Shown here: positions 4,005 to 21,922 of the stretch, piece by piece
Layout: each line of letters opens with the position of its first letter
How positions within the stretch are numbered: position 1 is the stretch's first letter
Assembly: GCA_027450145.1 (NCBI GenBank)
Contig: DAIDKH010000024.1
Coordinates: forward strand, 1-53,805
Direction of reading: 5' to 3'
Source: Chthonomonadaceae bacterium
GTDB taxonomy: Bacteria > Armatimonadota > Chthonomonadetes > Chthonomonadales > Chthonomonadaceae
DNA length: 53,805 nucleotides
Notes under the pieces: model-generated
The model's input: only the letters and a program-made list of their open reading frames with translations
Databases searched by the model: none
Told to the model about the DNA's origin: nothing
Translations under genes and position numbers: made by a program

Positions 4005-4640
4005 ATGGCTACTATGGAAGCGATTGGGAACCTAAATGCAATTCAGCGCGATGTCATTCGCGAGATAGGGAATATAGGCGCTGGAAATGCTGTGACTGCC
4101 CTGGCGACAATGCTTAACGACAAGATTGAGATGGCTATTCCTACTGTTGGTCTCATGAAACTGTCGGAATTTACTAACATGGTTGGCGGTCCAGAGACAG
4201 TTTCAGTTTGTGTCTATCTACCTGTGGACGGGGAAGCGCCTGGGCATGTTGCATTTTTTACGCCGGAACTTGGAGCACAGACATTGGCCAATAGGCTCCT
4301 TGGGAGAGATTCATCCGAATTGCAGGAATTCGATGACATGGCATGCTCCGCGCTTATGGAAGTGGGTAATATTCTTGCCTCATCCTACCTCATGGCGCTG
4401 TGTGAGCTTACCGGGCTTAACCTGCTCTCCTCTCCGCCGGCACTAGCAATTGACTACACAGCTGCAATTCTTGACTCGTTAGCAGGCTATCTTGCTTACA
4501 CTGATTCGAATGAGGATCAGGCTCTCACCATATTAACTCAGATTCAGGGCTGTGAGCACCTGATTGAAGGCATGTTTTTGTATATTCCTACGGCAGGCAG
4601 TATGCGAACCATGCTGCGAGCCTTAAATATGGAAGGATAA
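4005..4640 (+). CDS. cheC: CheC, CheY-P phosphatase
   Basis: CheC dephosphorylates CheY-P and binds CheD in the adaptation system known from Bacillus and Thermotoga. The 211-residue protein has both phosphatase half-sites of the family. The first is D16-x3-E20-x2-N23 followed by P46, and the second is S115-x3-E119-x2-N122 followed by P145. Both have the 22-residue spacing between Asn and Pro expected for the family. The ATG at 4005 is preceded by CCGGAG at a suitable distance. It is the first gene of a five-gene che operon, and cheD follows after 2 bases. Confidence 0.93.
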   Translation: MATMEAIGNLNAIQRDVIREIGNIGAGNAVTALATMLNDKIEMAIPTVGLMKLSEFTNMVGGPETVSVCVYLPVDGEAPGHVAFFTPELGAQTLANRLLGRDSSELQEFDDMACSALMEVGNILASSYLMALCELTGLNLLSSPPALAIDYTAAILDSLAGYLAYTDSNEDQALTILTQIQGCEHLIEGMFLYIPTAGSMRTMLRALNMEG

Positions 4641-4642
4641 AA

Positions 4643-5203
4643 GTGGACCAGACACAGATGGTAGGGATGGCCGAAATGGCAATTACCTGCTCGGCTGGAG
4701 GAGTGCTGATGGCTCTTGGTCTGGGCAGCTGTGTGGGGGTATGCGTGTATGACTATCACAAGAAGATAGCGGGATTAGCCCACGTCGTTCTACCCGCCAG
4801 CGGCGGACAGTGCGGCAGTGATGGAAAATATGCCGATACAGCAATACCGGCGCTCTTAAAGGCTATGGCAGCAGCAGGCGCAAACGAACGATCACTGCGA
4901 TATGCAATTGTTGGCGGCGCTCAACTGTTTATTGGCGCTTCTACTGGCGCAAGACTGGACATTGGACCGCGCAATGTTGAGGCAGTGCTTGCACTTTTAA
5001 AGGCGAGAAACGCTGCGATACTCGCACAAGATACTGGCGGTAACTCTGGTAGGACAGTGACTGTCTTCGGCGATGGCCGCGTGCGCTTACGAACGCTAGG
5101 CAAAACAGAACGAGACCTAGTAAACCTCAGTGGCGCGGGTAGCGAACGTGGAAGCGCCGGGCTGGCAGGTACAGCCCTTAACGTACATATGGCAGCAGCA
5201 TAA
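4643..5203 (+). CDS. cheD: CheD, chemoreceptor glutamine deamidase
   Basis: CheD deamidates specific glutamines in chemoreceptors and partners with CheC. The family core is visible: LGLGSCVGVCVYD carries the catalytic Cys (C30) and LAHVVLP the catalytic His (H47). The 17-residue spacing equals that of the Thermotoga protein (C27, H44). The third triad residue, a Thr six positions before Cys in the Thermotoga enzyme, is Ala24 here. The start is GTG at 4643, two bases after the cheC stop. ATG codons at residues 6 and 9 are alternatives. At 186 residues it is somewhat longer than many CheDs (~160) because of a C-terminal tail rich in Gly and Ala. Confidence 0.92.
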   Translation: MDQTQMVGMAEMAITCSAGGVLMALGLGSCVGVCVYDYHKKIAGLAHVVLPASGGQCGSDGKYADTAIPALLKAMAAAGANERSLRYAIVGGAQLFIGASTGARLDIGPRNVEAVLALLKARNAAILAQDTGGNSGRTVTVFGDGRVRLRTLGKTERDLVNLSGAGSERGSAGLAGTALNVHMAAA

Positions 5204-5226
5204 CGACCTGTTGAGAGGCAGCATGG

Positions 5227-6123
5227 ATGGATATTGATCGCAAGTTCGAAACTAACCTTTCAGCCGCAAGTGCTACCGCTTCGGTAGATAGTACTCTGGA
5301 AACACCAGATTACGTTTGGTTTAAGCAGCAGATGCTCAAGAAGAGCGGCATAGACTTGAACCAGTACAAGCAGGCACAAATGCATAGGCGTCTTATGGGG
5401 CTTGTTGAGCGGCTTGGCTGTAAGGACTTCAAAGAGTATTTCGAGCGACTGGAGGCCAAGCCAGAGGAATATGCTATTTTTCTGGATCGCATGACAATAA
5501 ATGTATCCGAGCTATTCCGTAACCCAGAGAAGTGGCGGGAGCTGGAGGAGATAATCCTACCAGATATGTTGAGGGCTAAACGACCATTGAAGGTGTGGAG
5601 TGCAGGTTGTTCATATGGCGCCGAACCCTATACTCTTGCGATCATACTTGATAAGCTGTCGCCGGGCGTTAAACATACGATTGATGCCACCGACCTTGAC
5701 AGAACAATACTAGAACGCGCAAAAGCTGGAAGGTTTACGCAGGTGGATATCAAGCAGATTAAGCAACCCGATGTTGCTCGTTATTTCAACGAGAAACCCA
5801 GCGCGGGAGGGATGGCCGATCTGGAGATGCGCTTTGAAGTGAAGGACGAAATTCGGCGGCGAGTGAATTTTCAGCAGCAGAACCTTCTAGCTGATAGGTT
5901 TAACGAGGGCTATGACCTTATTTGCTGCAGAAATGTGGTGATCTATTTTACCGACGAGGCTAAGGACAAACTGTACAAGAGGTTCGCTTCATCACTAAAG
6001 CCATCAGGCGTGTTGTTCGTTGGTGGTACCGAAAGGATATTTGGGTACCAGGACATCGGATTTACGATGCCCGTGCCGTTCTTCTATCGTCGCATGGGTT
6101 CGGCGAACGCGGCTGCTGCTTGA
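5227..6123 (+). CDS. cheR: CheR, chemoreceptor glutamate methyltransferase
   Basis: CheR transfers methyl groups from SAM to receptor glutamates. The order is an N-terminal helical CheR domain (IDLNQYKQAQMHRRL...), then the catalytic domain with the SAM loop VWSAGCSYGAEPYTLAI and the late motif DLICCRNVVIYF. The usual GEEPY of the SAM loop is GAEPY here. The 298-residue length is normal. GAGAGG at 5213-5218 supports the ATG at 5227; an out-of-frame ATG at 5223 is not used. About 25 residues of Ser/Ala/Thr-rich sequence precede the domain. It follows cheD by 23 bases in the che operon. No CheB methylesterase is encoded in the window. Confidence 0.94.
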   Translation: MDIDRKFETNLSAASATASVDSTLETPDYVWFKQQMLKKSGIDLNQYKQAQMHRRLMGLVERLGCKDFKEYFERLEAKPEEYAIFLDRMTINVSELFRNPEKWRELEEIILPDMLRAKRPLKVWSAGCSYGAEPYTLAIILDKLSPGVKHTIDATDLDRTILERAKAGRFTQVDIKQIKQPDVARYFNEKPSAGGMADLEMRFEVKDEIRRRVNFQQQNLLADRFNEGYDLICCRNVVIYFTDEAKDKLYKRFASSLKPSGVLFVGGTERIFGYQDIGFTMPVPFFYRRMGSANAAAA

Positions 6124-6258
6124 GAGGCAGCATTCTAAGATCGATACTGTGTAACTGTGTTCGTTGGTTGAGATAACAACCGACAGTTTGGATACCAATC
6201 TGGTTTGATATTTACATCTGTGAACAATGCAAATGTTCTTCAGGAGGCAAGGACTAAA

Positions 6259-6621
6259 ATGGCCAAACGAGTTTTAATTACGGATGATGCTCTGTTTATG
6301 CGTGTAACGCTTAAAAACATACTGGAAAAGGGTGGGTATGAAGTTGCTGGGGAGGCCTCCAATGGACGCGAGTCGGTTGAGATGTACCAGCAGGTGAAAC
6401 CAGACCTGGTGACCATGGATATTACGATGCCAGAACTGGATGGCATTTCGGCAGTAAGAGAAATCAAAAAGACAGATCCAAATGCGAATATCATCATGTG
6501 TACGGCAATGGGCCAAAAGCAGATGGTGCTTGAAGCTGTCGCAGCAGGAGCAAAGGACTTTATTGTAAAGCCATTCCAGCCAGACAAGGTCATAGAAGCT
6601 CTGCAGAAAATCATAGGCTAA
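6259..6621 (+). CDS. cheY: CheY, single-domain response regulator
   Basis: CheY takes phosphate from CheA and, as CheY-P, acts on the flagellar switch. The 120-residue receiver domain has the acidic pair DD near residues 9-10, the phosphoacceptor Asp in TMDITMPELDG, the Thr in CTAMG and the Lys in DFIVKPFQP. I chose the ATG at 6259 because AGGAGG sits 11 bases upstream and MAKRVLITDDA is the usual CheY start. An upstream in-frame ATG at 6205 would add 18 unrelated residues. It is followed by a hairpin and then cheX. Confidence 0.95.
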   Translation: MAKRVLITDDALFMRVTLKNILEKGGYEVAGEASNGRESVEMYQQVKPDLVTMDITMPELDGISAVREIKKTDPNANIIMCTAMGQKQMVLEAVAAGAKDFIVKPFQPDKVIEALQKIIG

Positions 6622-6635
6622 AAGGTAGGACGCAG

Positions 6636-6665
6636 CCGTGCAGCTGCTATTGCAGCCACGGTTTT
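6636..6665 (+). terminator. Hairpin between cheY and cheX
   Basis: CCGTG (6636-6640) and GCTGC (6643-6647) pair with GCAGC (6652-6656) and CACGG (6657-6661) around a TATT loop, with a CA bulge. A run of four T follows. It could be a weak terminator or attenuator that lowers cheX expression relative to cheY, or an RNA-stability element. Confidence 0.45.
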
Positions 6666-6682
6666 AGGAGCTATATAAAGGC

Positions 6683-7144
6683 ATGAAAGTTCAGTATATT
6701 AATCCATTTGTCGACGCGTCCTTCAAAGTCATTGAAATGGTTTTGAACATGAAGGTTGAAAAGGGACAGCTCGCTATGAGGCCGGCCGTGTTCACTTCAC
6801 AGCAGTGCAACATCATCACTGGTGTTACTGGTAAAGTGGAGGGGCAGGTCATGTATGGCATGAGCCTTATAACAGCCGACAAGGTGGCATCGCAAATGCT
6901 GGGGCAACCAGTTCGTACGTTTGACCAATTGGCGGCTAGTGCAATCGCCGAACTGGGCAACATGATAACAGGTAATGCCTCCGTGCTGCTATCTGAGGCG
7001 GGATATTCGTGTGACATAACTCCACCGTCGATCATACGGGGAACAAATGTCAAGATGTCCACGCTCAACATTCCGGCGCTCGTTGTGCCGTTGTGCATGG
7101 ACTTGGGTGAAATAGAGCTTACTGTGAGCCTGCAGGAGAGGTAA
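6683..7144 (+). CDS. cheX: CheX, CheY-P phosphatase
   Basis: CheX is a dimeric CheY-P phosphatase of the CheC/FliY/CheX family. The 153-residue protein has one active-site half, S86-x3-E90-x2-N93 (SAIAELGNMITGN), in the position expected for CheX, and the family ending with repeated hydrophobic strands. TAGGAG upstream of the ATG at 6683 supports the start. It is the last gene of the che operon, so the operon carries two different CheY-P phosphatases, CheC and CheX. Confidence 0.9.
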   Translation: MKVQYINPFVDASFKVIEMVLNMKVEKGQLAMRPAVFTSQQCNIITGVTGKVEGQVMYGMSLITADKVASQMLGQPVRTFDQLAASAIAELGNMITGNASVLLSEAGYSCDITPPSIIRGTNVKMSTLNIPALVVPLCMDLGEIELTVSLQER

Positions 7145-9994: not shown

Positions 9995-11989
9995 ATGCCA
10001 TCGTTTTCGACGGATACTATGCACGACGCGTCATCCGAACACGCACAGCCAGGCGCTGTTGCACGGCCCAAAGCGGTAACGTGGCGAAGTGTACTGATAA
10101 GTCTTCTGATTTTACCATTAAATGATTACTGGCAAGTGCAGATGGAGATCGTACGGTACTCCGCGCATCCCAGCACCATTTCACTCTTCTTCAATGCGGT
10201 TTTCATTCTACTTGTTGTTACTTGCATCAACGAATTAGTCAAGCGTACCTCGCCAAAAATGTGTCTCGAACGCGGAGAACTCTTGCTAATTTACGGCATA
10301 GTTTGTATAGGGACGGCAGTAGTGGGACATGACACCCTTGAGGTGTTTGTACCAATGCTGACCTACGCATTCCGCCACGCCACAACGAGCAACAATTGGG
10401 CTAACATCATTATCCCTCACCTTAAGAAGCCGCTGTTTATAAGTAATCCAGCAATTTACCGTTCTTATTATCTAGGTAATGACACTATATGGCGAATGAA
10501 GTACGTCATGGCATGGCTGCCGGTGACCCTTATATGGACAGCCTTCATTACGACTCTATTATTCGTCATGCTGTGCATCAATGCAATTCTTCGCAAACAA
10601 TGGACAGATAGTGAGCGGCTTACCTATCCCATTGTGCAACTACCACTTCAAATCACGAGTGAGGGCGCTTTTCTGAAGGGCGGGTTGTTTAGAAATCGTC
10701 TATTCTGGCTAGGTTTTCTTGTCGCTGGCACCATAGACATGGTAAACAGTCTGAATTATTACTATCCAAGCATTCCTACCATCCTCACACCAGGATTTGG
10801 GCAAAGCTTTTTAGATATTTCAATTTACTTTACTCATAAGCCCTGGAATGCTATAGGATGGACTCCGGTGTCGTTTTACCCATTCATGGTAGGATTGGGC
10901 ATGTTTATGCCATTGGACTTCCTGTTCTCAATGGTTTTCTTTTACTGGTTCTGGAAAATGCAGCATGTGGTGGCCGCAGCAATGGCTTGGGACCGTACAC
11001 CGGACTTTCCGTACACGGAAAATCAATCCTTCGGCGCCTACCTGTCCTTCTGTTTTTATTCCATCTGGTTGAGTCGAAGCTACATTAAAGATGTGTATAA
11101 CAAGGTTCGGGGCAGGCCGTCGCATCTTGATGACTCGATGGAACCAATGCGCTACAGGTCTGCCGTTGCTGGCATTTTTGTGGGCGTAACTGCTCTCGTC
11201 GCCTTTTCTGCCTATTTGGGAATGACGTGGTGGGTTGGCATCATATTTTTCCTAATGTACTTTGCCCTTGCCCTTGCCATAACACGAATGAGAGCAGAAT
11301 TGGGTACACCCATCAACGATCTGCATTTCACGGGGCCCGACCAGGTCATGACGCGTATTGTGGGGAGCAGGGAATTCAATACCAACACACTTACTGCCTT
11401 TTCAATCTATTTCTTCTTCAATCGCGCCTATCGCGGACATCCCATGCCAATTCAGTTGGAAAACTACAAGCTTGCCGAACAGACGCGAACAGATTACAGA
11501 AAATGGCACTGGGCGATGATCATATTGGGTGGTGCTGCAGTCTTTATTGGTTTCTGGACCATCTTACAGCTAATGTACAGCTACGGTGCGGAAGCCAAAT
11601 CCGCGATGACGTTTGGGCCAGAATCGTATAACCAACTGCAATCCTGGATTAGCAGTCCAACCCATGCACAATTTGGTCAGTTGATGGCGCTTTGCGCTGG
11701 TTTAGGATTTGCGGCGTTTTTGCAATGGATGCGAATACAGTTTCCTTGGTGGCCCTTTCATCCGTTGGCCTATGCGGTATCGTCATCATATGAAATAAAC
11801 CTTGTTTGGGGACCTCTCCTTATAGCATGGGTATGCAAGTCGCTTATACTGCGATACGGCGGGCGAGGTGGATTTCAGCGAGCTTTACCGTTTTTTATGG
11901 GCCTTATGTTGGGACAGTTTGTGGTTGGCAGCCTTTGGAATATTTACGGCATTGCCAGGGGGCTTCCTACGTACCAGTTCTGGCAGTGA
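9995..11989 (+). CDS. DUF6785-like polytopic membrane protein
   Basis: This 664-residue integral membrane protein has roughly a dozen hydrophobic segments beginning near residue 30 and continuing to the C-terminus. It resembles the DUF6785/DUF6784 proteins that are common in Armatimonadota and Planctomycetota, with conserved Trp- and Tyr-rich loops, RMRAELGTPINDLHF and the C-terminal WMRIQFPWWPFHPLAYA. A transport role is possible from the fold, but substrate and function are unknown. The ATG at 9995 follows GAGAG at a suitable distance; another ATG lies at 10019. The gene is divergent from mqnD and convergent with the signalling locus. Confidence 0.7.
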   Translation: MPSFSTDTMHDASSEHAQPGAVARPKAVTWRSVLISLLILPLNDYWQVQMEIVRYSAHPSTISLFFNAVFILLVVTCINELVKRTSPKMCLERGELLLIYGIVCIGTAVVGHDTLEVFVPMLTYAFRHATTSNNWANIIIPHLKKPLFISNPAIYRSYYLGNDTIWRMKYVMAWLPVTLIWTAFITTLLFVMLCINAILRKQWTDSERLTYPIVQLPLQITSEGAFLKGGLFRNRLFWLGFLVAGTIDMVNSLNYYYPSIPTILTPGFGQSFLDISIYFTHKPWNAIGWTPVSFYPFMVGLGMFMPLDFLFSMVFFYWFWKMQHVVAAAMAWDRTPDFPYTENQSFGAYLSFCFYSIWLSRSYIKDVYNKVRGRPSHLDDSMEPMRYRSAVAGIFVGVTALVAFSAYLGMTWWVGIIFFLMYFALALAITRMRAELGTPINDLHFTGPDQVMTRIVGSREFNTNTLTAFSIYFFFNRAYRGHPMPIQLENYKLAEQTRTDYRKWHWAMIILGGAAVFIGFWTILQLMYSYGAEAKSAMTFGPESYNQLQSWISSPTHAQFGQLMALCAGLGFAAFLQWMRIQFPWWPFHPLAYAVSSSYEINLVWGPLLIAWVCKSLILRYGGRGGFQRALPFFMGLMLGQFVVGSLWNIYGIARGLPTYQFWQ

Positions 11990-12029: not shown

Positions 12030-13241
12030 CTACAAACCTTGAAGGTATGCCATATTGTAACCGTAAACAACGAGCTTGCGGTTAAATGTCTCACTGTGTC
12101 TCGTACCTACGGTCATACCTACTAGATTGTTATTTAAATCGAACACCGGCGCTCCAGCATAATTGTATTGGTCGTGATAATTCACCTCAAAGCCGCTTAA
12201 TGTCTGTTGTTTGGTATTGGGTTCCAGATAGTAATTTGCAATTACAGGATGATCCTGAAGATGTACCGCTGTACTTGAAGCGAGGTCGTCGAGAAGAACG
12301 ATGGTCACTGTAGTGTTCATTAGCTCTGTTGTTTGCGAGAGGGTTGGCAACGGCAGCATTACCGGTGTGTTCAACGTTATGCGTGCTACATCCGCATGCA
12401 GCGTAATCGAGCTTGCGGGGACATCCTCTCGTATGTAAGGAGCACTAGAACCGATAACGACTTCAACGTCGGTTACCTTGTTTGCAAGGTTCAGTACTTC
12501 GGTTGATGCGGCAAGCACGGTGTTGGAGTTGATGACGGTTCCTGCACCGACCCGAAACCAGTTACCGGATGCATCCTGCTGCATAATGAGTGCCTGGGCG
12601 TTGGTGAGCGTTGCATTCGGTGTTGATAAGGAAGGTGATTGCGCGGAAGTGGATGGGGTATTGCGCGAATTTACGCCGGATGTAATTGCCGCGGGCAAGT
12701 GGAGATTACCAATTCCCGGTGATAGATTTGGCAACTGGCCGATGGAATTCGAGAGTACAACTGGCAATTTGGTAGGTAACGAGATCGTTGGTGGTCGTCG
12801 AGGATGAAGCAGCGACTTGACCCAGTGATAACCACCAACAAGTCCGCCTCCAACAATTATAAGCAGTACCAAGGCGGTAATGGATCCCCCTACGGTCTGT
12901 TTTATGGCAACAACGTCTATGTGACGCCTGGTTCCATCCAAATGGCTATTGGTAATGAACTCCGCCTTAAAATCGCCTAACTCAATAACCGATCCAGAGC
13001 CAAGGCGCGCCATTTGAATAGGCGTACCATCTATTTGTGTGCCATTACTGCTGTTCTGATCTTCAATGAGCCAGCCAGTACCATCCCATCTTATTACAGC
13101 ATGCTGCCGTGATAATTCGGTGTAGGCAGAAAGGTCGAATGTCGATTCGGGCGAGCGACCCAATACAACAGCATAGGAGTCAATCTGGAGATTGGTTCCG
13201 GTTAGTGGTCCGCTCATTACTTTTAATTCTGCTTGAACCAT
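12030..13241 (-). CDS. FHA-TM-trypsin-fold pseudoprotease
   Basis: Residues 1-100 form a canonical FHA phosphothreonine-binding domain (LGRS at 27-30, SRQHA at 44-48, SSNG at 64-67). A membrane helix follows at ~119-138, then a Ser/Pro-rich linker and a C-terminal domain at ~225-403. The C-terminal domain aligns by eye with the trypsin-like domain of the 14507-15769 protein. GAGTVINSNTVLAASTEV corresponds to its catalytic-His segment, but His is Thr247. ADVARI keeps the Asp (D284). YAGAPVFD replaces GDSGSPIVD, so the nucleophile Ser is Ala362. It should therefore bind rather than cut. It is the last gene of the signalling locus. Confidence 0.72.
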   Translation of the reverse strand: MVQAELKVMSGPLTGTNLQIDSYAVVLGRSPESTFDLSAYTELSRQHAVIRWDGTGWLIEDQNSSNGTQIDGTPIQMARLGSGSVIELGDFKAEFITNSHLDGTRRHIDVVAIKQTVGGSITALVLLIIVGGGLVGGYHWVKSLLHPRRPPTISLPTKLPVVLSNSIGQLPNLSPGIGNLHLPAAITSGVNSRNTPSTSAQSPSLSTPNATLTNAQALIMQQDASGNWFRVGAGTVINSNTVLAASTEVLNLANKVTDVEVVIGSSAPYIREDVPASSITLHADVARITLNTPVMLPLPTLSQTTELMNTTVTIVLLDDLASSTAVHLQDHPVIANYYLEPNTKQQTLSGFEVNYHDQYNYAGAPVFDLNNNLVGMTVGTRHSETFNRKLVVYGYNMAYLQGL

Positions 13242-13268
13242 TGCAATATCCTCGCTAAGATTGCGACG

Positions 13269-13997
13269 TTAGGATGATTCCCAGGGTATGCGGGCGATGA
13301 TGACAGTGCAGTTGTCGGCACTCCCTGCCCGCAATGCGGCTGCCACCACCTGCTCGGCGGCGCTGGACAGCGGACTGTGTTCAATGATCCAGCGCATATC
13401 CGGTTCCGGTAACACTTCGTGAACCCCGTCGGTACAGAGCAGGAGAGTATCGCCGGGTTCCATGTCAAAAGTAGAGAGATTGGGTGATATACCGCCTTCA
13501 GCCCCTATTGCCTGGGAAAGAACGTGGCCGTGCGGATGTTTGCGTGCTACGCGGTCATCAATTCCTAGCAGTTGTGAAATGTACAGATCGTCGCAGGTAA
13601 GGCGTCGGACGCAATCGGCACGAAATTGGTATGCCCTACTGTCACCAACGTTCGCTACGAGTACGGTGGATTGCATCAATACTGCGGCCACCATTGTGCT
13701 GCCCATCCCTCGTAATTCAGGTGAGGTATTGACCCTTTTGAGTACATTTTGATGGGCATTTTTGATTGCATCCATTAAACTGCCTTCAGAGCCGTCATAG
13801 GTCGTATCGGCGAACGCTTTGGACAACGAAGTGACTGCTATTTCACTGGCAACTTCACCTCCTTCGTGACCTCCCATGCCATCTGCCACGACTAGAAGAG
13901 TACCGAACTTAGGATTGTGGCAGAATGATGCACGATCCTCGTTATTTGGCCTAATACCTTTTTCGGAGTAGACCGATATGTTGTTGGAACCTATCAC
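13269..13997 (-). CDS. PP2C-family Ser/Thr protein phosphatase
   Basis: This metal-dependent phosphatase (PPM/PP2C, Stp/PrpC type) of 242 residues has all the signature blocks: RPNNEDR (near 16-22), VVADGMGGHEGGE (37-49), VANVGDSRAYQFR, and LLLCTDGVHEVL. It lacks membrane segments and is presumably cytoplasmic. It probably reverses phosphorylation by the Ser/Thr kinase encoded in the same run (16779-17735). The start ATG overlaps the stop of the upstream small membrane protein by 4 bases, indicating coupling. Confidence 0.93.
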   Translation of the reverse strand: MIGSNNISVYSEKGIRPNNEDRASFCHNPKFGTLLVVADGMGGHEGGEVASEIAVTSLSKAFADTTYDGSEGSLMDAIKNAHQNVLKRVNTSPELRGMGSTMVAAVLMQSTVLVANVGDSRAYQFRADCVRRLTCDDLYISQLLGIDDRVARKHPHGHVLSQAIGAEGGISPNLSTFDMEPGDTLLLCTDGVHEVLPEPDMRWIIEHSPLSSAAEQVVAAALRAGSADNCTVIIARIPWESS

Positions 13998-14440
13998 CGT
14001 GTCGGCCCCGGTAAAACAGGCTGCTTAGGACGGTCAGGCAGATCACCACCTCGGCTAACGATGTGTGTCACCGGAGTAGGTTTCGTACCAGGCGGCAGCA
14101 CTGTTTGGTTTTCAGCAGGTTTATGTACTGTTACATACGTACGCCCTGTACCGCCATTGTAGTGAATAGGTGAGTTATTGGTCGCTGGCGAAGGTCTTCG
14201 TTTAGCAATCGGCGCGGAAGTATGCGATCTAATCAGTTTTGAGTGAATGAACCAACCTAGTCCAAAACCAATGGTACAACTTACCAGGAGTACTCCTAAG
14301 GCAGTGAGCCATCGTGATTTGTTGTACAAGGTGGCGTTTTCGGCACCGCTGCTGAGTGGAATCCGAACCCATTCGTTGAAACGTGGTCGGTCGTCAGATG
14401 CATATGGACGGGCACGGCTAATGTCGTTTTGGTCACCCAT
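13994..14440 (-). CDS. Small single-pass membrane protein of the signalling locus
   Basis: The protein has 148 residues and no recognised family. About 43 polar residues precede one membrane helix at ~44-66 (ALGVLLVSCTIGFGLGWFIH). The ~80 residues after it are rich in Pro, Thr and Arg and end in PVLPGPTR. With the usual positive-inside rule the N-terminus would be cytoplasmic. Overlap by 4 bases with the PP2C gene ties it to the locus. It may be a scaffold or a kinase substrate, since it has several Thr residues in Pro-rich context, but this is inference. Confidence 0.7.
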   Translation of the reverse strand: MGDQNDISRARPYASDDRPRFNEWVRIPLSSGAENATLYNKSRWLTALGVLLVSCTIGFGLGWFIHSKLIRSHTSAPIAKRRPSPATNNSPIHYNGGTGRTYVTVHKPAENQTVLPPGTKPTPVTHIVSRGGDLPDRPKQPVLPGPTR

Positions 14441-14506
14441 AAGACAGTCTCCCAGTACTAATTTCCACTCTCAGCCTGTCGACACTACCTGTTAGGCACG
14501 TGTTGA

Positions 14507-15769
14507 TTAGTTGCTACTCTGCTGCAAAATCGGTTTGGCCTTGCGAATGAAGGCTCGAATGAATGCGGTTGGTATTTCCACCTTAAGGATTGTGCCACTG
14601 GCAAATGACCCGCGGTGAATAGCGATTACGTTACCGGAGCTGTCGACTATTGGGCTCCCAGAATCGCCAGACACACCGGACCCACTCATGTGAACCGCAA
14701 TAATGTGATGTTTGTCATCGCGTTCCAATTCGTTCACATCATGTGGTTGTGTTTCAGGGTCGGGATAGGGTGACATCGTTATATATCCGCCGGAGTTAAT
14801 TTGAGCATGATCAAAAACACTCCCGTTCTCTTTCAGATCAATACCACCGCCCTCTGGAAAACCCTCCATAAACACACGATCCGATGGATGGACAGAACTT
14901 GTGTGGCCGATGGTTAAAGGTGTTGCTCCGTCTGGTGCGCCTTTAGGTAACTTTATCAGCGCTAGATCAGTATCAAATTGGCCTACATCGTCGTTGTTTG
15001 TGGGTTCAAATGTACAAATGTCCGTAGCTGGCACTGGAATCGACACCTCATGTCCTGTTCCGGAGAAGAAGGTGACCATACAGTTCAATGTCTGTTCCGG
15101 CGCGCCTGTTGGAGCCGTCTCTTCGTCGGTAACAACGTGTCGATTAGTCAGTATGTAGTTGTCACCAATTAAAAACCCCGTCCCCACGCCTTCGCTGATC
15201 TGCGCGGATCCGCCTAACTGTGGTGTAACTCCCGTGACACAGGCGATGAATACGACGCCAGACTGCACCCTTTTCTCGACCGCGCGCGACAATGTTGTGG
15301 GATTAGGACGGGGCCAAAGGGCATATGCGAAGAGTGCTGCAATGACCATGAATGAACCTGCTAGCGCTGTTTTTAGCTGCCGTGATGCGATGGCACTTGC
15401 AGCGAGAAGCTTATGGAGATAAGTGGTGTTAGATGGTCTTTTTACCTCATTGTTGGATCCCTGCTCATCGTCTTCACGAACAATAAACTCTGCCTGCATT
15501 CCTCCAATGTCCACAACGTTTGACGAGGCCAGTGTTGCAATAGTAACTGGTTTACCGTTTACCGATATACCATTCGTACTTTGCAGATCTTCAATCACCC
15601 AATTGCCCGCGTGTTTGTAAATGCGAGCGTGTTTTCGTGACATCTCGTCGTATTGATGGAGCGGGAACGTGCTCTCGCTTCCACGTCCAAGGATAGCACC
15701 CTCCTCAGGAAGTGTAAGCGATTGACCTGCTAGAGGTCCGCTGCGAATTTGTAAAATTGCGTGACGCAT
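14507..15769 (-). CDS. FHA-TM-trypsin-like serine protease
   Basis: This 420-residue protein has a canonical N-terminal FHA domain (ILGRGSES at 26-33, SRKHA at 44-48, STNG at 64-67), a membrane helix at ~136-152 and a trypsin-like domain at ~160-410. The catalytic triad is complete: His211 in ILTNRHVV, Asp268 in FDTDLALIKL and Ser370 in VSGDSGSPIVD. The expected topology is FHA inside and protease outside the cytoplasmic membrane. I infer that phosphopeptide binding inside may steer or recruit an external protease, a possible outward or inward signalling step. It is a close structural paralogue of the pseudoprotease at 12030-13241. Confidence 0.88.
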   Translation of the reverse strand: MRHAILQIRSGPLAGQSLTLPEEGAILGRGSESTFPLHQYDEMSRKHARIYKHAGNWVIEDLQSTNGISVNGKPVTIATLASSNVVDIGGMQAEFIVREDDEQGSNNEVKRPSNTTYLHKLLAASAIASRQLKTALAGSFMVIAALFAYALWPRPNPTTLSRAVEKRVQSGVVFIACVTGVTPQLGGSAQISEGVGTGFLIGDNYILTNRHVVTDEETAPTGAPEQTLNCMVTFFSGTGHEVSIPVPATDICTFEPTNNDDVGQFDTDLALIKLPKGAPDGATPLTIGHTSSVHPSDRVFMEGFPEGGGIDLKENGSVFDHAQINSGGYITMSPYPDPETQPHDVNELERDDKHHIIAVHMSGSGVSGDSGSPIVDSSGNVIAIHRGSFASGTILKVEIPTAFIRAFIRKAKPILQQSSN

Positions 15770-15850
15770 ATCACGATAACCTCTCGGTAGAAGTATAAGG
15801 CCGTTAGCTCAGGTTTGCCCCAAAGCAATGGGTACTGCGATCTTGCTAAA

Positions 15851-15894
15851 ACCAACCTGATCCGATGATCGAATATGCCGGGAAAGAGGTTGGT
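15851..15894 (-). terminator. Possible hairpin upstream of the FHA-protease gene
   Basis: ACCAACCT (15851-15858) and AGGTTGGT (15887-15894) form an 8-base-pair stem with a 28-base loop. On the minus strand it is followed by TTTAG. It lies in the 136-base gap between the small membrane protein and the FHA-protease gene, where it could attenuate the locus or process its mRNA. The long loop makes this a weak call. Confidence 0.25.
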
Positions 15895-15905
15895 GTTACG
15901 TAGGC

Positions 15906-16172
15906 CTATTGTTGAGCCGGCGGACTTGTTGGGAACAGGCTAGGTGGCGTTGAAACGGCAGGCTCCGGAGGCGTGGCCGTATTAGTCTGCGCGTTGCCAA
16001 GCACAGGCAATCCGTTTGGCCCATATGTCGCGGCACCGATACGCTCCCCGAAAGCATCCGTCGCGTACTTGTGAACGGTTCCACTGTCGTTCGAGCCGCA
16101 GCCAAAATGCACTAGTAGTACTATGCCGAATACCAGCGCTATCACCGTCCACCTGTTTTTGGAAGCTTGCAT
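15906..16172 (-). CDS. Small membrane or lipoprotein-like protein of the signalling locus
   Basis: The protein has 88 residues. A short basic N-terminus (MQASKNR) leads into a hydrophobic segment (WTVIALVFGIVLLVHFGC) and then a Pro/Thr/Ser-rich tail. The Cys at residue 25 sits at the end of the helix, but VHFGC is not a good lipobox, so a signal anchor is as likely as a lipoprotein. It starts 2 bases after the stop of the FHA gene at 16175. No family was recognised. Confidence 0.62.
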   Translation of the reverse strand: MQASKNRWTVIALVFGIVLLVHFGCGSNDSGTVHKYATDAFGERIGAATYGPNGLPVLGNAQTNTATPPEPAVSTPPSLFPTSPPAQQ

Positions 16173-16174
16173 GA

Positions 16175-16681
16175 TTAGACTCGCTTGAATATAAGCTCTG
16201 TTTTACCAATTGTAATATGATCGCCATCCTGCAGGCTATGCGGTGCGGTCACGTCCTTTCCCAAGGTGCCTTCGTTAACACCGATGACGCCGGGCGCGGC
16301 GATATCACAAAGAAGCCAGCGATTATCCCGTTTAATGATGAGAGTGTCAATCGTACTTGAATAACTATCCTCAATGATGATACTACAGCCCTTTGTGCGT
16401 CCAATTGGGATGTAATCTTGGCTCAACTCTACCAACTGACCTTGATTCTGGCCGCGCGCAAAGAATACCCAAGCGGTCGTTGCCAGTTGAAGTTCGGCAC
16501 GGTCGTCGGCTAACTTCTTCGCATTCTCAGGTTGTCGCTCTCCCATGTTTTGTTGGGCAATCGGGGGCGGTGTTACACCGTCGGTAGTCGCGCTGGGTCT
16601 ACGCACTGCGGTTTCTCTCGCGTCCTGGCTGCCTGTTAAGTTTAAAATCCGTTTTTTGGTAGTAGGCCTATCGTCAGTCAT
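16175..16681 (-). CDS. Soluble protein with degenerate FHA domain
   Basis: The protein has 168 residues. The first ~75 are polar and probably disordered. The last ~85 read as an FHA fold: YIPIGRTKGCSIIIED, then RWLLCDIAAPGVIGVNEGTL and LQDGDHITIGKTELIFKRV. The GR pair is kept, but the SRxH block is SSTIDTL and the STNG block is not recognisable. Phosphothreonine binding may therefore be altered or lost. It lies between the kinase and the membrane-anchored FHA proteins. The Thr-rich N-terminus could be a kinase target, but nothing proves it. Confidence 0.75.
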   Translation of the reverse strand: MTDDRPTTKKRILNLTGSQDARETAVRRPSATTDGVTPPPIAQQNMGERQPENAKKLADDRAELQLATTAWVFFARGQNQGQLVELSQDYIPIGRTKGCSIIIEDSYSSTIDTLIIKRDNRWLLCDIAAPGVIGVNEGTLGKDVTAPHSLQDGDHITIGKTELIFKRV

Positions 16682-16778
16682 GGTGGTGGATCTCCGGTAG
16701 TGTGTTCGAGATTAATGGCGAATTATTTCACAACTGCACTAACCTACCGATACCATTAGGTACGGCTTGAATTTGATG

Positions 16779-17735
16779 CTATTCACCTTTTCTTTGCTCG
16801 TGAAGCATACCTGTGCGAGCGCTCTCAGAAGCTGTGGAATTTACGGCTGTGCCTGCGCTTCGAACAACTACACCGGCAAAAGTCGGAGTTCGAGGTTGTA
16901 ATACCTGCTTCCAAACGTGTTCAAGAGCGGTGCGCATCTCATCAGAATTCCGGAATCGGGCTTCGGGCCGTTTTTGCAGGGCTCTCGTGATTACGCTTTT
17001 CATCTGCCTTGGAAGCGTTGAAGGGAGCGGTGGAAGCGGTTTGTGTACCTGTTGATATAGTACTTGCATCGTATTATCGCCAGTGTAAGGTAGCCGCCCC
17101 GTTACCATTTGAAACAACATGATACCCAAGCTGTACAGGTCTGATTTTAACGACATATGAATGTTATCTGTGTTGAGCGTACCCTGCGCCTGTTCGGGAC
17201 TCATATACTCCGGTTTGCCCAACACGGCACCGGCCTGAGTGAGTGTCTTTTCTGTTACCCCACTTCTGGCAATTCCAAAATCTATCAGCTTTATGACGCC
17301 GTTGGCACACAAGAAGACGTTACTAGGTGAAAGGTCTCGATGTATAATTCCTGCACGATGTGCACACCCTAATGCTGCGAGAACCTCGCACCCAATCCGG
17401 CAGATAAATGGAACAGTGGGCTGGGGTGTCTTATCCAAGAACGACTTTAATGTCTCCCCATTCATAAACTCCATGGCTAGAAACGGACTATCCCCGCAGT
17501 AGTCATATTCATACAACCTGACGATGTTCGCATGGTCTAGGGACGACAGCATAAGCGCTTCACGTTGAAAGCGGTCGCGAAACTCTGGGGCCGCGGCAAT
17601 TTCGGGTCGCATCACCTTCAGTGCTACTGGTCGTTTAGTGGGGATGTGGATTGAGCTGTAAACTTCGCCCATTCCACCCTGACTAACCAAACCGATAAGC
17701 TCGTAATTGCACATTGTGCTACTAACGCGTGTCAA
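16779..17735 (-). CDS. Soluble Ser/Thr protein kinase (PknB type)
   Basis: A complete Hanks-type kinase of 318 residues. It has the Gly loop VSQGGMGEVYSS (18-29), the ATP-site Lys40 in VALKVM, Glu59, the catalytic loop HRDLSPSNV with Asp134, the metal-binding DFG at 152-154 and the activation-segment end GKPEYMSPEQAQG. Residues ~265-318 are a tail without TM helix or sensor domain, so it is cytoplasmic. The frame starts at TTG 17735 with AGGAG six bases before it; an ATG at 17714 also lies in frame. It follows the sigma-like gene by 63 bases. Likely targets are its FHA-containing neighbours or the sigma-like factor. Confidence 0.94.
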   Translation of the reverse strand: MTRVSSTMCNYELIGLVSQGGMGEVYSSIHIPTKRPVALKVMRPEIAAAPEFRDRFQREALMLSSLDHANIVRLYEYDYCGDSPFLAMEFMNGETLKSFLDKTPQPTVPFICRIGCEVLAALGCAHRAGIIHRDLSPSNVFLCANGVIKLIDFGIARSGVTEKTLTQAGAVLGKPEYMSPEQAQGTLNTDNIHMSLKSDLYSLGIMLFQMVTGRLPYTGDNTMQVLYQQVHKPLPPLPSTLPRQMKSVITRALQKRPEARFRNSDEMRTALEHVWKQVLQPRTPTFAGVVVRSAGTAVNSTASESARTGMLHEQRKGE

Positions 17736-17798
17736 GATTGGCTCCTGTCGCTTTTCATGCGCAACTTGTAAAAAGTGTAGGAATTATAATATCATCAA

Positions 17799-18878
17799 TT
17801 AATTATAACTCATAGATAATAGTCGCTGTAGTTTGCGACGTGCTTCCTTGCGCCTGTTAATAACCTGTTGTCGGGATACCCCTTGTATTGATGCGATGGT
17901 CAGGTCATCAAGAGGAAGCACATTCCAAAATCGTAACAGTTCGTTGAGTTCAATCCCTAGCAAACCGGCTATATCGGTGTATGATGCTGTTCCCGTATTG
18001 ACCAACAAGTCCATCACACCTTGGCCACTATTGTCGCGAAGATTAAGCAGTATCGCAGTTCTCTCGGGAAGAGCCAACTGAGACAGGTGCGTCCAGATGA
18101 ATTGGAGCGACAATTTGTTTTCAACTTGTAGCTCTAACGATCTAGGTACCTCGGCCACCTGAGTCGTTGTGGTATCGAGTTCCTCTAGTGTTAACCACCG
18201 CAGATCACGGGTTTGGACGGTCGTTACGACAGCATTCATCAGTGCATTTCGCTCACACGGATGTGCGACCCAACGGAGCAGCATAACGATCTGCCCTGAT
18301 AAACCGGGGATGGACGGCACCTCTTTTTCCGCTTCGTGCCACGCAAGTTCCGGGTGGTACTCAAGCAACTTGTGCCTAGAAGAATGCAAATAGCGAACGC
18401 CATCCCGGTACCAGGTTGGTAGCCCAACAACTGCCTTACCATCGGTAGTTGTCCACTGTACGAACTCATTGTGATGTTTCATAAGGTAATGTAGTCGGTC
18501 GGCCAATAAACTACGATCTGGATTTCGATCTCGCATCAGCCTATGCCACGTATTTATAGCAAGCCGTCTAGAGTAACAGCCGAGGTTGTGGATGCCCGCA
18601 GATTTCCCATTTCGAAGCGAGATGAGGCGTGCGACGATTCGTGCCTGACATTCGCTTATGAAATCCTGTGTGTCATGGCGCGACAAATACGTCCCTCTAG
18701 ACAACCTGCAGAACAGCACCCTTTTAATGCAAGGTGTTACGTATGCGTCCATTAATCTAGCCAGCTCACGATTGGCATCTTCCCACAACGCCGCATCTAG
18801 GTAATCCTGCATCAGTGGATCGTTGTTGCGTCTACCTGGATCGTTGAATTGGTTTTCCCGAGACTTAACATTTACCAC
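17799..18878 (-). CDS. Sigma-70-like RNA polymerase sigma factor
   Basis: The protein is about 359 residues from the preferred GTG at 18878, which has GGAGG 8 bases upstream; TTG 18902 and ATG 18893 are in-frame alternatives. An N-terminal region (DFISECQARIVARLISLRN, then LGCYSRRLAINTWHRLMRDR) resembles sigma region 2. The C-terminus (DDLTIASIQGVSRQQVINRR, then KEARRKLQRLL) is a region 4-like helix-turn-helix. Between them lie ~180 residues, including LALPERTAILLNLRD, much longer than in ordinary ECF factors. No anti-sigma gene is adjacent. A kinase follows, which recalls ECF families controlled by Ser/Thr kinases. It is the first gene of the signalling locus and may autoregulate it. The sigma call is by motif only. 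Confidence 0.7.
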   Translation of the reverse strand: MVNVKSRENQFNDPGRRNNDPLMQDYLDAALWEDANRELARLMDAYVTPCIKRVLFCRLSRGTYLSRHDTQDFISECQARIVARLISLRNGKSAGIHNLGCYSRRLAINTWHRLMRDRNPDRSLLADRLHYLMKHHNEFVQWTTTDGKAVVGLPTWYRDGVRYLHSSRHKLLEYHPELAWHEAEKEVPSIPGLSGQIVMLLRWVAHPCERNALMNAVVTTVQTRDLRWLTLEELDTTTTQVAEVPRSLELQVENKLSLQFIWTHLSQLALPERTAILLNLRDNSGQGVMDLLVNTGTASYTDIAGLLGIELNELLRFWNVLPLDDLTIASIQGVSRQQVINRRKEARRKLQRLLSMSYN

Positions 18879-19075
18879 TGTCACCGCCTCCATAGGATGC
18901 AATGATCATGCATATGATTTATTTTAATAGCCTATCGTTAAAACTTCGTTAAAAGCATGGGGTCATGTTTGTTATCAGCATCAATGTAGTATTCGGATCA
19001 TGTCCAAATAACTGCTTAAAGGCAAGAATGTTTCCTATGCAGGAAATCGAATACGTTTTAATAAATTATCATGAT

Positions 19076-21922
19076 ATGAAGACTAGAGTTCTCCTTGTTT
19101 TTGTCCTGCTTACCGTTGTGGCGACTTGTGCACATGCTTCACCGGAATTATCATATGGTGGTTGGACGGTAAATAGCAAAGACCAGTTAGGTGATATCTA
19201 CTACCGTTCGGTTTTGATCGCCACCCCGGGCATGCTTCAGTTGTTTGCGCCTGCCTACAAAAGCGGCTATTTCAGCACGAGTACTGATGGGGTCCAGCCG
19301 CTTCAGCTAATAAGCAAGGTTGACGGTTTACACTTTGCCCGACAGATTTCAACTAAGTTACTTTACGGCTCGTTACAATCTAGAGAGACCTGCGATCTGG
19401 CTTCGAATGGGCTTGCGCGCTTTACACTAAAGTTGGTGTGGAATGGCGATCGTGATACGGTACTAGAGTGGAACCCAGTGCTCCTGAACATCTCACCATT
19501 TATTGGATCTGTTGTCACTACGGGGTCTGGGCAGCCCACGGTAATTCCATACATTTTGCACGGGCATCCAGGTATGCTGACAATGGCGTCGGACTTTCAC
19601 AGTATTGAATTCCGACATACTGCGGTAGGTGATATCCACCTTTCAAGCGCGGGTATTAGTCCTAGCCTGGGGGACGGTCGCAATGATCCTTACCTATCTA
19701 ATCAGCAGGTACTGTGGCCCGGCCTATTGGGGATTACGGTCCATCCTGGGCAGGTCGTAAACACCACAATTTTAGTGCATATTGTGGGTGACACAACCAG
19801 TATAGAAAACAACAGCGGACGGACAATGGTTGCGAGTACAACGCTACTGAAGGATGCGCTTGGTCCGCCACCGATATTCAAGCGCATTTTAATTCCGGCC
19901 CCAAAATCGGTCGTATGGCGAAAGACCGCAGCTATACACTGTAACATGCCCAGCGTACGAGTTAGCCCAAACGTATCCGCAATGATTGCACGAGGTGACC
20001 TTGCGAATTTGCAGCCTGTCATCAAGATACTAGGCGTCTCGAACCATAGGGTAAAACTCATTCCACACACTAGGAACGTCGTACAACTCGTCTTCGGTGC
20101 GACTAGGGCTACCTTGACCGTTCCAGCACCACCGCGTCATGAAGAGGGTTACGCGATTCTGGCACGACGGGGCTATATCTCAGCAGTGGGATCTGACGAT
20201 GCAGGTATACGCTGGGCGTTAGCCTCCGTGCTGCAGTTGCTTCATCGTACTGCTCCAGGTTTGTTTGTCCTGCAGAGGTGTAATATTCGCGATTGGCCAT
20301 CAATGCGCTTTAGGGGCATTCATCTCTTTGTAGGTAAAAACGCACTGCCGTTTCATGACCGATTGCTTAAACGTGTGCTGGCTCCGCTGAAGATTAACCG
20401 ATTGGTTTTGGAATGTGAGTATGCTGCGTGGAAAGGGCATCCAGACCTGGTAACCCCGTTTGCAATGTCCCTGAAGGATCTCCACAAAGAGGTAATAAAT
20501 GCGAAGAGATTGGGTGTAGAACCCATCCCGCTCATTGAAACTCTAGGGCATAGTCAATGGCTATTCTATAACAAACGTAACTTAAAATTATCAGAGGACC
20601 CCACTAAGCCTTTTGCTTATGACGCGACAAACCCAGATGTGTACAAGGTCGTGTTCGACATTTTTAGGCAGGCGCTAAGGGTGTTTGGAAGGCCGCGGGA
20701 GTTTCATATTGGTCATGACGAGGTAAAGATCCCTGGATTTACGGGATTTGGCGAGTATCCTGCACGCCCTAAAAACGTCAAGATTGGCCTGGTTCTTCTT
20801 TTCGTGGGCGACGTACTATCCCTTCACAATTGGCTTGCTCGCCATGGGGCAAAAACAATGATGTGGGGTGACATGCTTCTTAACCGTAGCGAAGGAACCA
20901 AAACTGCGGGAAACCCGACGATGCAGGCTGCCAATGCTCCTTCGGTTAATGCCGCCGAAGCCATGCGTAATGCGCTGCCCAAGGACATAACGATTTGCGA
21001 TTGGCGATATGGTACGGGATCAGAGCAACGTAACGGGTTGTCGGTATTTCAGAAGGCCGGATTTACCGCAATAGGATCATCCTGGTATGAGCCAGGAAAC
21101 ATAGAAGGGTGGGCTAAGCAGATTATTAAGCACAAATCCCGCGGCCTTCTACAAACCACATGGGACGGCTACAACAGCAACGCAGGGCTGCTAAATACTA
21201 GCTTCAGGCAGTATTCGGCATTTGTCGATGCGGCAGATGCTGCCTGGAGTGGCCACATCTTACCTCGCGGCGGTTGTCAACCTTCCCAGTTTGCGACACC
21301 TACGGCATCGTATGTGTTTCGCCAGCTTTACGAGCCAAGACTTTCAGCGTATTGCGCTAAAACTGGTTGGGCAGCTGATTTGACCGACAGGGCGAATATA
21401 GCTGTAGACTCCGCACTACCGGTGCCATGGTCCCAAATTAAAAAACCAGCGACTTCCAGTCGCCTTGTAAGGTTGCAACGTGGAATTGGAATTAATTACA
21501 ACGGCACTGCTATCATGTTCGCGTCGAACTACTCTCACGGCATCGTTCCCAACGCGCCACGGTCGCTAACGATAACAGTAAACCGTAGGGTACGTGTGAT
21601 TGCGTTCCTTCACGCAGTAACCTATCCTGTACCCAAGGGAACCCTGGTGGCGAATATCATTGTGCATTATGCCAATGGGAAGGCGGTCGATGTGCCAGTT
21701 CACTACGGAGATGATATTGACGCGCTGAGTTCCAATCAAACGTCGCAGTCAATCCTATCAGAGCGAATTCCGTGTATCGGACATGGCCATGGGCTGATGA
21801 TGCGTTCGTTCACTTGGCATAACCAAGTACCAGAGCAAGTTGTTGAGAATATTACCTATCGTTCCGTAAGCTCGCAAACTTCAGCATTATTGTTCGGCGT
21901 AACTGGTTTAACATCGAAATAG
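19076..21922 (+). CDS. Secreted glycoside hydrolase family 20-like enzyme
   Basis: GH20 enzymes are mostly beta-N-acetylhexosaminidases. From the ATG at 19076 (948 residues) the protein opens with a signal peptide, MKTRVLLVFVLLTVVATCAHA. In-frame ATGs from 18965 would put ~37 unrelated residues before it. After ~320 residues of beta-rich sequence, a GH20b-like segment (AILARRGYISAVGSDDAGIR) leads into the barrel: DWPSMRFRGIHLF, PLIETLGHSQWLF, and the catalytic Asp-Glu pair in EFHIGHDEV (HIGGDE is usual), then MMWGDML. A C-terminal ~200-residue beta domain follows. It is divergent from the signalling locus and convergent with the MATE gene (3-base gap). A polysaccharide or peptidoglycan substrate is plausible. 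Confidence 0.82.
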   Translation: MKTRVLLVFVLLTVVATCAHASPELSYGGWTVNSKDQLGDIYYRSVLIATPGMLQLFAPAYKSGYFSTSTDGVQPLQLISKVDGLHFARQISTKLLYGSLQSRETCDLASNGLARFTLKLVWNGDRDTVLEWNPVLLNISPFIGSVVTTGSGQPTVIPYILHGHPGMLTMASDFHSIEFRHTAVGDIHLSSAGISPSLGDGRNDPYLSNQQVLWPGLLGITVHPGQVVNTTILVHIVGDTTSIENNSGRTMVASTTLLKDALGPPPIFKRILIPAPKSVVWRKTAAIHCNMPSVRVSPNVSAMIARGDLANLQPVIKILGVSNHRVKLIPHTRNVVQLVFGATRATLTVPAPPRHEEGYAILARRGYISAVGSDDAGIRWALASVLQLLHRTAPGLFVLQRCNIRDWPSMRFRGIHLFVGKNALPFHDRLLKRVLAPLKINRLVLECEYAAWKGHPDLVTPFAMSLKDLHKEVINAKRLGVEPIPLIETLGHSQWLFYNKRNLKLSEDPTKPFAYDATNPDVYKVVFDIFRQALRVFGRPREFHIGHDEVKIPGFTGFGEYPARPKNVKIGLVLLFVGDVLSLHNWLARHGAKTMMWGDMLLNRSEGTKTAGNPTMQAANAPSVNAAEAMRNALPKDITICDWRYGTGSEQRNGLSVFQKAGFTAIGSSWYEPGNIEGWAKQIIKHKSRGLLQTTWDGYNSNAGLLNTSFRQYSAFVDAADAAWSGHILPRGGCQPSQFATPTASYVFRQLYEPRLSAYCAKTGWAADLTDRANIAVDSALPVPWSQIKKPATSSRLVRLQRGIGINYNGTAIMFASNYSHGIVPNAPRSLTITVNRRVRVIAFLHAVTYPVPKGTLVANIIVHYANGKAVDVPVHYGDDIDALSSNQTSQSILSERIPCIGHGHGLMMRSFTWHNQVPEQVVENITYRSVSSQTSALLFGVTGLTSK

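Follow-up and report, generated by a model that had tools for sequence, protein, structure and literature searches.

A set of eight genes on the minus strand, at positions 12030 to 18902 of a 53,805-nucleotide stretch of DNA from a Chthonomonadaceae bacterium of the phylum Armatimonadota (GenBank assembly GCA_027450145.1, contig DAIDKH010000024.1; the whole stretch is referred to as the window), may encode a phosphorylation-gated, membrane-spanning proteolysis module, a reading to which we give somewhat less than an even chance. The genes specify a sigma-70-like factor, a soluble Ser/Thr protein kinase, a pseudo-FHA protein, a PP2C-type phosphatase, two small proteins, and two proteins (proteins 1 and 2) in which an FHA domain is joined through a transmembrane (TM) helix to a trypsin-type domain. 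The original prediction that a membrane helix links a phosphopeptide reader to a protease was confirmed: protein 1 is an FHA-TM-trypsin protein with an intact catalytic triad, and it belongs to a conserved set with the kinase and the phosphatase. In the usual view, the Ser/Thr kinases of bacteria sense signals outside the cell and act within it. In this set the reader carries a protease across the membrane, so phosphorylation on the inner side could control cutting on the outer side.

The assembly (G000) totals 4.14 Mb, and the window is its contig 24; relatives of G000 include two genomes of the same genus (G001 and G002) and one of another genus of the same family (G010). In alignments of four orthologues, the FHA residues G28, R29, S44, R45, H47, N66, and G67 of protein 1 are invariant (4/4), as is the catalytic triad H211, D268, S370 (4/4). 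The protease domain (Trypsin_2 in Pfam, 4.5e-20) sits after the TM helix and forms the end of the protein, in which no PDZ domain was matched. Protein 2 likewise retains the FHA residues that contact phosphothreonine (GR, S(R)xH, NG). The position of the catalytic His, however, is occupied by Glu248 in all four orthologues and that of the Ser by Ala, Ala, Met, and Leu, with Asp284 retained, and the Trypsin_2 match was at 0.045. The AlphaFold model of protein 2 is weak (mean predicted local distance difference test score, pLDDT, 47.8); a Foldseek comparison with this model returned trypsin folds at probability 1.0, among them those of the pseudoprotease MamO and of the S1C domain of RsgI9 (PDB 7sjy), and matched its FHA domain to GarA. 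Since a PDB sequence search with protein 2 found no protease, its assignment to the trypsin fold depends on a low-confidence model together with aligned motifs. Two trypsin-fold proteases had been predicted; judged by their residues, protein 1 is an active-looking protease and protein 2 is a consistently dead copy. In both proteins the FHA domain lies on the side without a signal peptide, with the trypsin-type domain across a single helix, an arrangement from which the former is inferred to be inside and the latter outside. MamO is not itself a protease, yet it activates proteolysis that depends on MamE (PMC4794232), and by analogy proteins 1 and 2 may work as such a pair. That the dead copy is conserved points to a pair whose proteolysis is regulated.

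A Pfam scan of the eight proteins identified the kinase (3e-45), the phosphatase (PP2C_2, 5e-20), the FHA domains of proteins 1 and 2 (3e-16 and 2e-13), and a degenerate FHA domain (8e-05), and found no credible family for the sigma factor or the two small proteins; the kinase, phosphatase, FHA, and trypsin identities hold in Pfam and NCBIfam. The kinase motifs VALK, HRDLSPSN, and DFG and the metal-binding motifs DGMGG and DG/DN of the phosphatase were read directly from the sequences. In most orthologues the pseudo-FHA protein has lost the phosphothreonine-binding Arg, Ser, and Asn. Its N-terminal tail retains an invariant Thr within the motif [RK]xT[AVT]VR, a candidate phosphosite that resembles the ETTS-type sites of GarA and OdhI. 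The 148-amino acid bitopic protein keeps a predicted cytosolic motif, RP[RK]FNEWV, and its outer part varies. The ratio of nonsynonymous to synonymous substitution rates (dN/dS) was saturated for most gene pairs of the set.

The order kinase, pseudo-FHA protein, small exported protein, protein 1, bitopic protein, PP2C, and protein 2 is common to G000, G001, and G002. Gene order is retained across the relatives at 28–80% protein identity, and the neighborhood is therefore more than chance. The seven genes are found in G001 on a contiguous contig between the same neighbors, with GH20 and MATE genes at one end and DUF6785 at the opposite end; the contig of G002 begins within the sigma gene and carries the rest of the set. 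In G010 the set is split. Its main locus consists of the genes for the pseudo-FHA protein, the small protein, a zf-HC2 membrane protein, protein 1, the bitopic protein, PP2C, and protein 2, the six non-kinase genes retaining their order, and the sigma and kinase genes are adjacent on another contig, near a MATE gene. The expectation that the genes would be neighbors in related genomes held for six of them, the sigma gene being separable and the kinase gene partly so. The set is conserved but rare, and it is known here from metagenome-assembled genomes alone, which limits its reach: protein 1 was found in 4/291 searched genomes of the phylum at E<1e-139, with the next best match at 2e-15. No relative of the set was found in plasmid records. 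In G061, one of the genomes with these more remote matches, a lone FHA-TM-trypsin gene with intact catalytic motifs was seen among unrelated housekeeping genes (L071:8567-9919), without a kinase or PP2C gene beside it; this architecture therefore exists without the set. A different set in the same family (G007, L051:827-3239) consists of a possible vWA gene, then a PP2C-like gene and, directly after the latter, a trypsin-like gene.

The zf-HC2 protein of G010 (255 amino acids) has two zf-HC2 fingers (5.6e-12) and a TM stretch, and its gene lies directly before that of protein 1. It matched ChrR-type anti-sigma models at 3.1e-08, below the cut-off, and in G011 the gene for its homologue comes directly after one for a sigma factor of the family to which that of the window belongs.

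Assignment of the first gene product to the sigma-70-like factors had been predicted, and it stands through relatives, model, and structure matches, the protein itself not being recognized by Pfam. Sigma70_r2 was detected in 7/23 and Sigma70_r4_2 in 3/23 family members (E up to 0.1), and a relative in G048 matched TIGR02937 at 8.7e-08, below the curated cut-off. The AlphaFold model (pLDDT 86.5) matched mostly sigma factors in the PDB, none better than E=0.017. More than 150 residues separate the sigma2-like helices from the sigma4 helix-turn-helix. Within the insert of this family, profile positions 174–217 match five distinct RNA polymerase delta subunits in their N-terminal domain (E=0.001–0.003), a weak but specific lead; no literature precedent was found for a sigma factor with a delta-like domain.

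The sigma family occurs in 35/291 genomes of the phylum, and its members are normally paired with zinc-finger membrane proteins rather than with kinases. An HxxxCxxC zinc-finger gene lies directly downstream of the sigma gene at 15 of the 25 automatically scored family loci, a count that rises to 17 with loci L106 and L110, which were read by hand, and none lies upstream (0/19 loci). G005 also has a sigma gene followed by a small zinc-finger gene. Among these loci, a kinase is the next gene only in the window and in G010. A sigma factor of this family in G048, which shares its genus with G061, carries an FHA domain fused to its N-terminus (L053:9570-11000), with a small zinc-finger gene after it and multi-kinase and FHA-ABC transporter genes before it. 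This fusion near kinase domains ties FHA and kinase to the sigma family again. It had been supposed that the sigma gene belongs to the set and heads it. Because this gene was deleted in G001, where about 590 bp are left, including a 32-bp conserved upstream element besides which neither tblastn nor blastn found a remnant, an obligatory role at the head of the set was rejected; its place beside the kinase on another contig in G010 and the usual zinc-finger pairing of its family also speak against such a role. The sigma factor is an optional member, not the core of the set. The natural variants (sigma loss in G001, a split set with an anti-sigma-like gene in G010, and an FHA-sigma fusion in G048) offer a way to test the order of events.

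An exact direct repeat, TTTAACG-N4-TTTAACG, occurs once each in G000, G001, and G010, always upstream of this gene set, and its reversed control had no match in the three genomes. The repeat upstream of the sigma gene is common to both genera; it persists in G001 despite the loss of the sigma gene, and its flanks are partly conserved. Heptamer repeats with 4-nucleotide spacers are typical of SARP-type activators (PMC10972967). The element may be an operator of the SARP/PhoB type, in which heptamer direct repeats with a 4-nucleotide spacer overlap the −35 region; such an overlap is putative here. Readings of the repeat as a Pho box or as the mark of a sigma regulon were discarded, a regulon being unsupported with a single exact match per genome. 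The same exact repeat was seen beside large regulator-like genes in G005 (L121:1501) and G008 (L120:1501); a BTAD gene (Pfam) adjoins the site in L121, the only one of the two loci where BTAD was confirmed. Generic promoter and terminator scans gave nothing beyond chance level.

In the mechanism that we propose, the kinase would phosphorylate a cytosolic partner, for which the best candidate is the Thr in the pseudo-FHA tail; alternative targets would be the bitopic protein and the kinase itself. The phosphothreonine would then dock both FHA domains and bring protease and pseudoprotease together. The pseudoprotease would assist the active protease, which would cut a membrane or envelope target, and PP2C would return the switch to its resting state. 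For the ancestral arrangement, represented by G010, a likely target would be the zf-HC2 membrane anti-sigma-like protein encoded beside the protease; its cleavage would release the sigma factor in the way that cleavage of RseA by DegS releases RpoE (PMC8103513). In the genus of the window, the main output is probably proteolysis itself, because the anti-sigma gene is gone and the sigma factor is optional; where kept, the latter may be controlled directly by the kinase, of which its DTQD motif is a hint only. Taken in full, an inside-out switch running from a cytosolic kinase through FHA docking to an outer protease and its dead twin, with a membrane anti-sigma protein as ancestral substrate and release of the sigma factor inside, is unlikely. 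The original prediction of a switch linking phosphorylation, proteolysis, and transcription gains a plausible route from the anti-sigma-like gene of G010 and loses ground to an optional sigma factor and a dead protease.

Several observations weigh against the proposed module. No anti-sigma homologue was found in G000, G001, or G002, and in G001 the sigma gene is missing while the other seven genes stay; the link to transcription in the genus of the window is weakened by both. The substrate of the protease and the phosphosite are guesses. When the two protease domains were compared as profiles, built from shallow alignments, the probability of a match was 8% (E=0.0043), and the fold of protein 2 rests on its low-scoring model. 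The counts of Lys and Arg residues flanking the helix do not settle the orientation in the membrane. Topology, phosphosite, docking, substrate, and output are all inferred.

Alternatively, the neighboring kinase could switch the sigma factor directly by phosphorylation, as in EcfP/PknT; the FHA, protease, and PP2C genes would then serve envelope maintenance as a module of their own, which either shares the kinase or is simply adjacent to it. The adjacency of sigma and kinase in G010, with the FHA/protease set elsewhere, is consistent with this idea, as is the equivalent of the DAED motif in the window protein, D77-T78-Q79-D80, which contains a Thr and has Gln in place of the usual Glu; the ECF43 sigma factors, which have no DAED, become active when phosphorylated at this site (PMC8999054). 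However, the sigma factor of G010 keeps an acidic DVED, which argues that lost acidity is not a family trait, the Thr phosphorylated in EcfP occupies another position of the motif, and G001 still has the kinase with the FHA/protease genes in the absence of the sigma factor. We regard this explanation as rather unlikely. Accidental proximity of unrelated genes would agree with the two parts found in G010, but the order retained at such divergence in several genomes and the common operator candidate kept upstream make it very improbable.

The signal could also run from outside to inside, with the trypsin and pseudotrypsin domains sensing envelope proteins or peptides and the FHA domains, through the helix, tuning the output of the kinase and the sigma factor. 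The retention of the pseudoprotease as a domain would fit, and the S1C trypsin-type domain matched in PDB 7sjy belongs to RsgI9, an anti-sigma factor (PMC12203970). Nonetheless, the invariant triad of protein 1 would be superfluous for pure sensing, and FHA domains usually read phosphorylation rather than send it, so this direction appears quite unlikely. Equally doubtful is a role of the FHA-TM proteins as structural parts of a phosphorylation-controlled envelope or secretion assembly, comparable to FHA ring, motility, and type VI secretion system (T6SS) proteins, in which the protease would process components. Kinase, PP2C, and FHA genes are common companions of such machines, and the FHA-TM part has weak profile similarity to SctD, GltG, and TagH, but this similarity is mostly confined to the FHA region and no secretion or motility structural genes were seen beside the set in G000, G001, G002, or G010.

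Table 1. Features of the eight-gene set and its upstream repeat in the window.
Feature	Position	Strand	Remarks
FHA-TM-pseudotrypsin protein 2	12030..13241	-	403 aa; FHA intact, triad degenerate
PP2C-type Ser/Thr phosphatase	13269..13997	-	242 aa; starts with GTG; overlaps the upstream gene by 4 bp
Small bitopic protein	13994..14440	-	148 aa; RP[RK]FNEWV, one TM helix, variable Pro-rich outer part
FHA-TM-trypsin protein 1	14507..15769	-	420 aa; FHA and triad residues invariant; TM about 134-152
Small exported lipoprotein-like protein	15906..16172	-	88 aa; lipobox not canonical; orthologues in G001, G002, G010
Pseudo-FHA protein	16175..16681	-	168 aa; phosphothreonine-binding residues lost; N-tail Thr motif
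Soluble Ser/Thr protein kinase	16779..17735	-	318 aa; VAxK, HRD, DFG motifs; without membrane helix
Sigma-70/ECF-like factor	17799..18902	-	367 aa, TTG start; sigma2 region, insert, sigma4 helix-turn-helix (residues 329-358)
Heptamer direct repeat TTTAACG-AAGT-TTTAACG	18936..18953	-	upstream of sigma; candidate operator/promoter element

The presence of eight genes on one strand was borne out by the open reading frames of the window and by the domain matches (Table 1). They had been described as joined by short gaps and several overlaps. The gaps were found (63, 97, 2, 136, 66, and 27 bp), and the only true overlap is that between the bitopic protein and PP2C genes. The set is flanked by genes for a DUF6785/DUF6784 membrane protein, 93–96% identical within the genus and conserved far above the operon, and for a GH20b-domain protein (flanks at window positions 9995-11989 and 18965-21922). 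Short plus-strand open reading frames at 4005-7144 resemble, by eye, chemotaxis genes (CheC, CheD, CheR, CheY, and CheX-like).

The composition of the set had been thought to be new, and no description of an FHA-TM-protease/pseudoprotease pair with a kinase and PP2C was found in the open-licence literature; papers on conflict systems mention FHA and trypsin domains but apparently not this set. Single parts have precedents, and it is the combination for which no description was found. In the DegS/RseA/RpoE system the protease is also a membrane-tethered trypsin-fold protein with its catalytic domain outside, as predicted for protein 1, and G010 has a membrane anti-sigma-like gene beside the protease and a sigma factor in the genome. 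In contrast, the present set has no PDZ domain, has FHA domains on the predicted inner side, a kinase, and PP2C, and the anti-sigma gene is absent in the genus of the window. In sigma factors paired with Ser/Thr protein kinases (ECF43 EcfP/PknT and EcfK/PknS; ECF59, 61, 62, 217, and 283), a Hanks-type kinase gene likewise directly follows the sigma gene, and the window sigma gene likewise has no adjacent anti-sigma gene. However, its family is usually paired with a zinc-finger protein, its DAED motif is partly lost, its kinase is soluble, and the long insert between its regions 2 and 4, which holds the delta-like stretch, differs from the short sigma2-sigma4 linker of the ECF43 type. Like GarA and OdhI, the pseudo-FHA protein is a small FHA protein whose N-terminal tail has a Thr motif resembling a kinase target; a self-binding switch of the GarA type is unlikely because the phosphothreonine-binding residues were lost. 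The pair MamE/MamO also combines an active and a dead trypsin-fold protein in one cluster, and MamO, with its degenerate triad, is a structural match of protein 2 by way of a low-confidence model; MamE and MamO, however, have no FHA domains or kinase. The mycobacterial pknB-pstP-fhaA/B genes and the PpkA/PppA/TagH genes of the T6SS also encode kinase, phosphatase, and FHA readers together, whereas in the window a helix connects the FHA readers to a protease domain in one protein and a pseudoprotease domain in the other.

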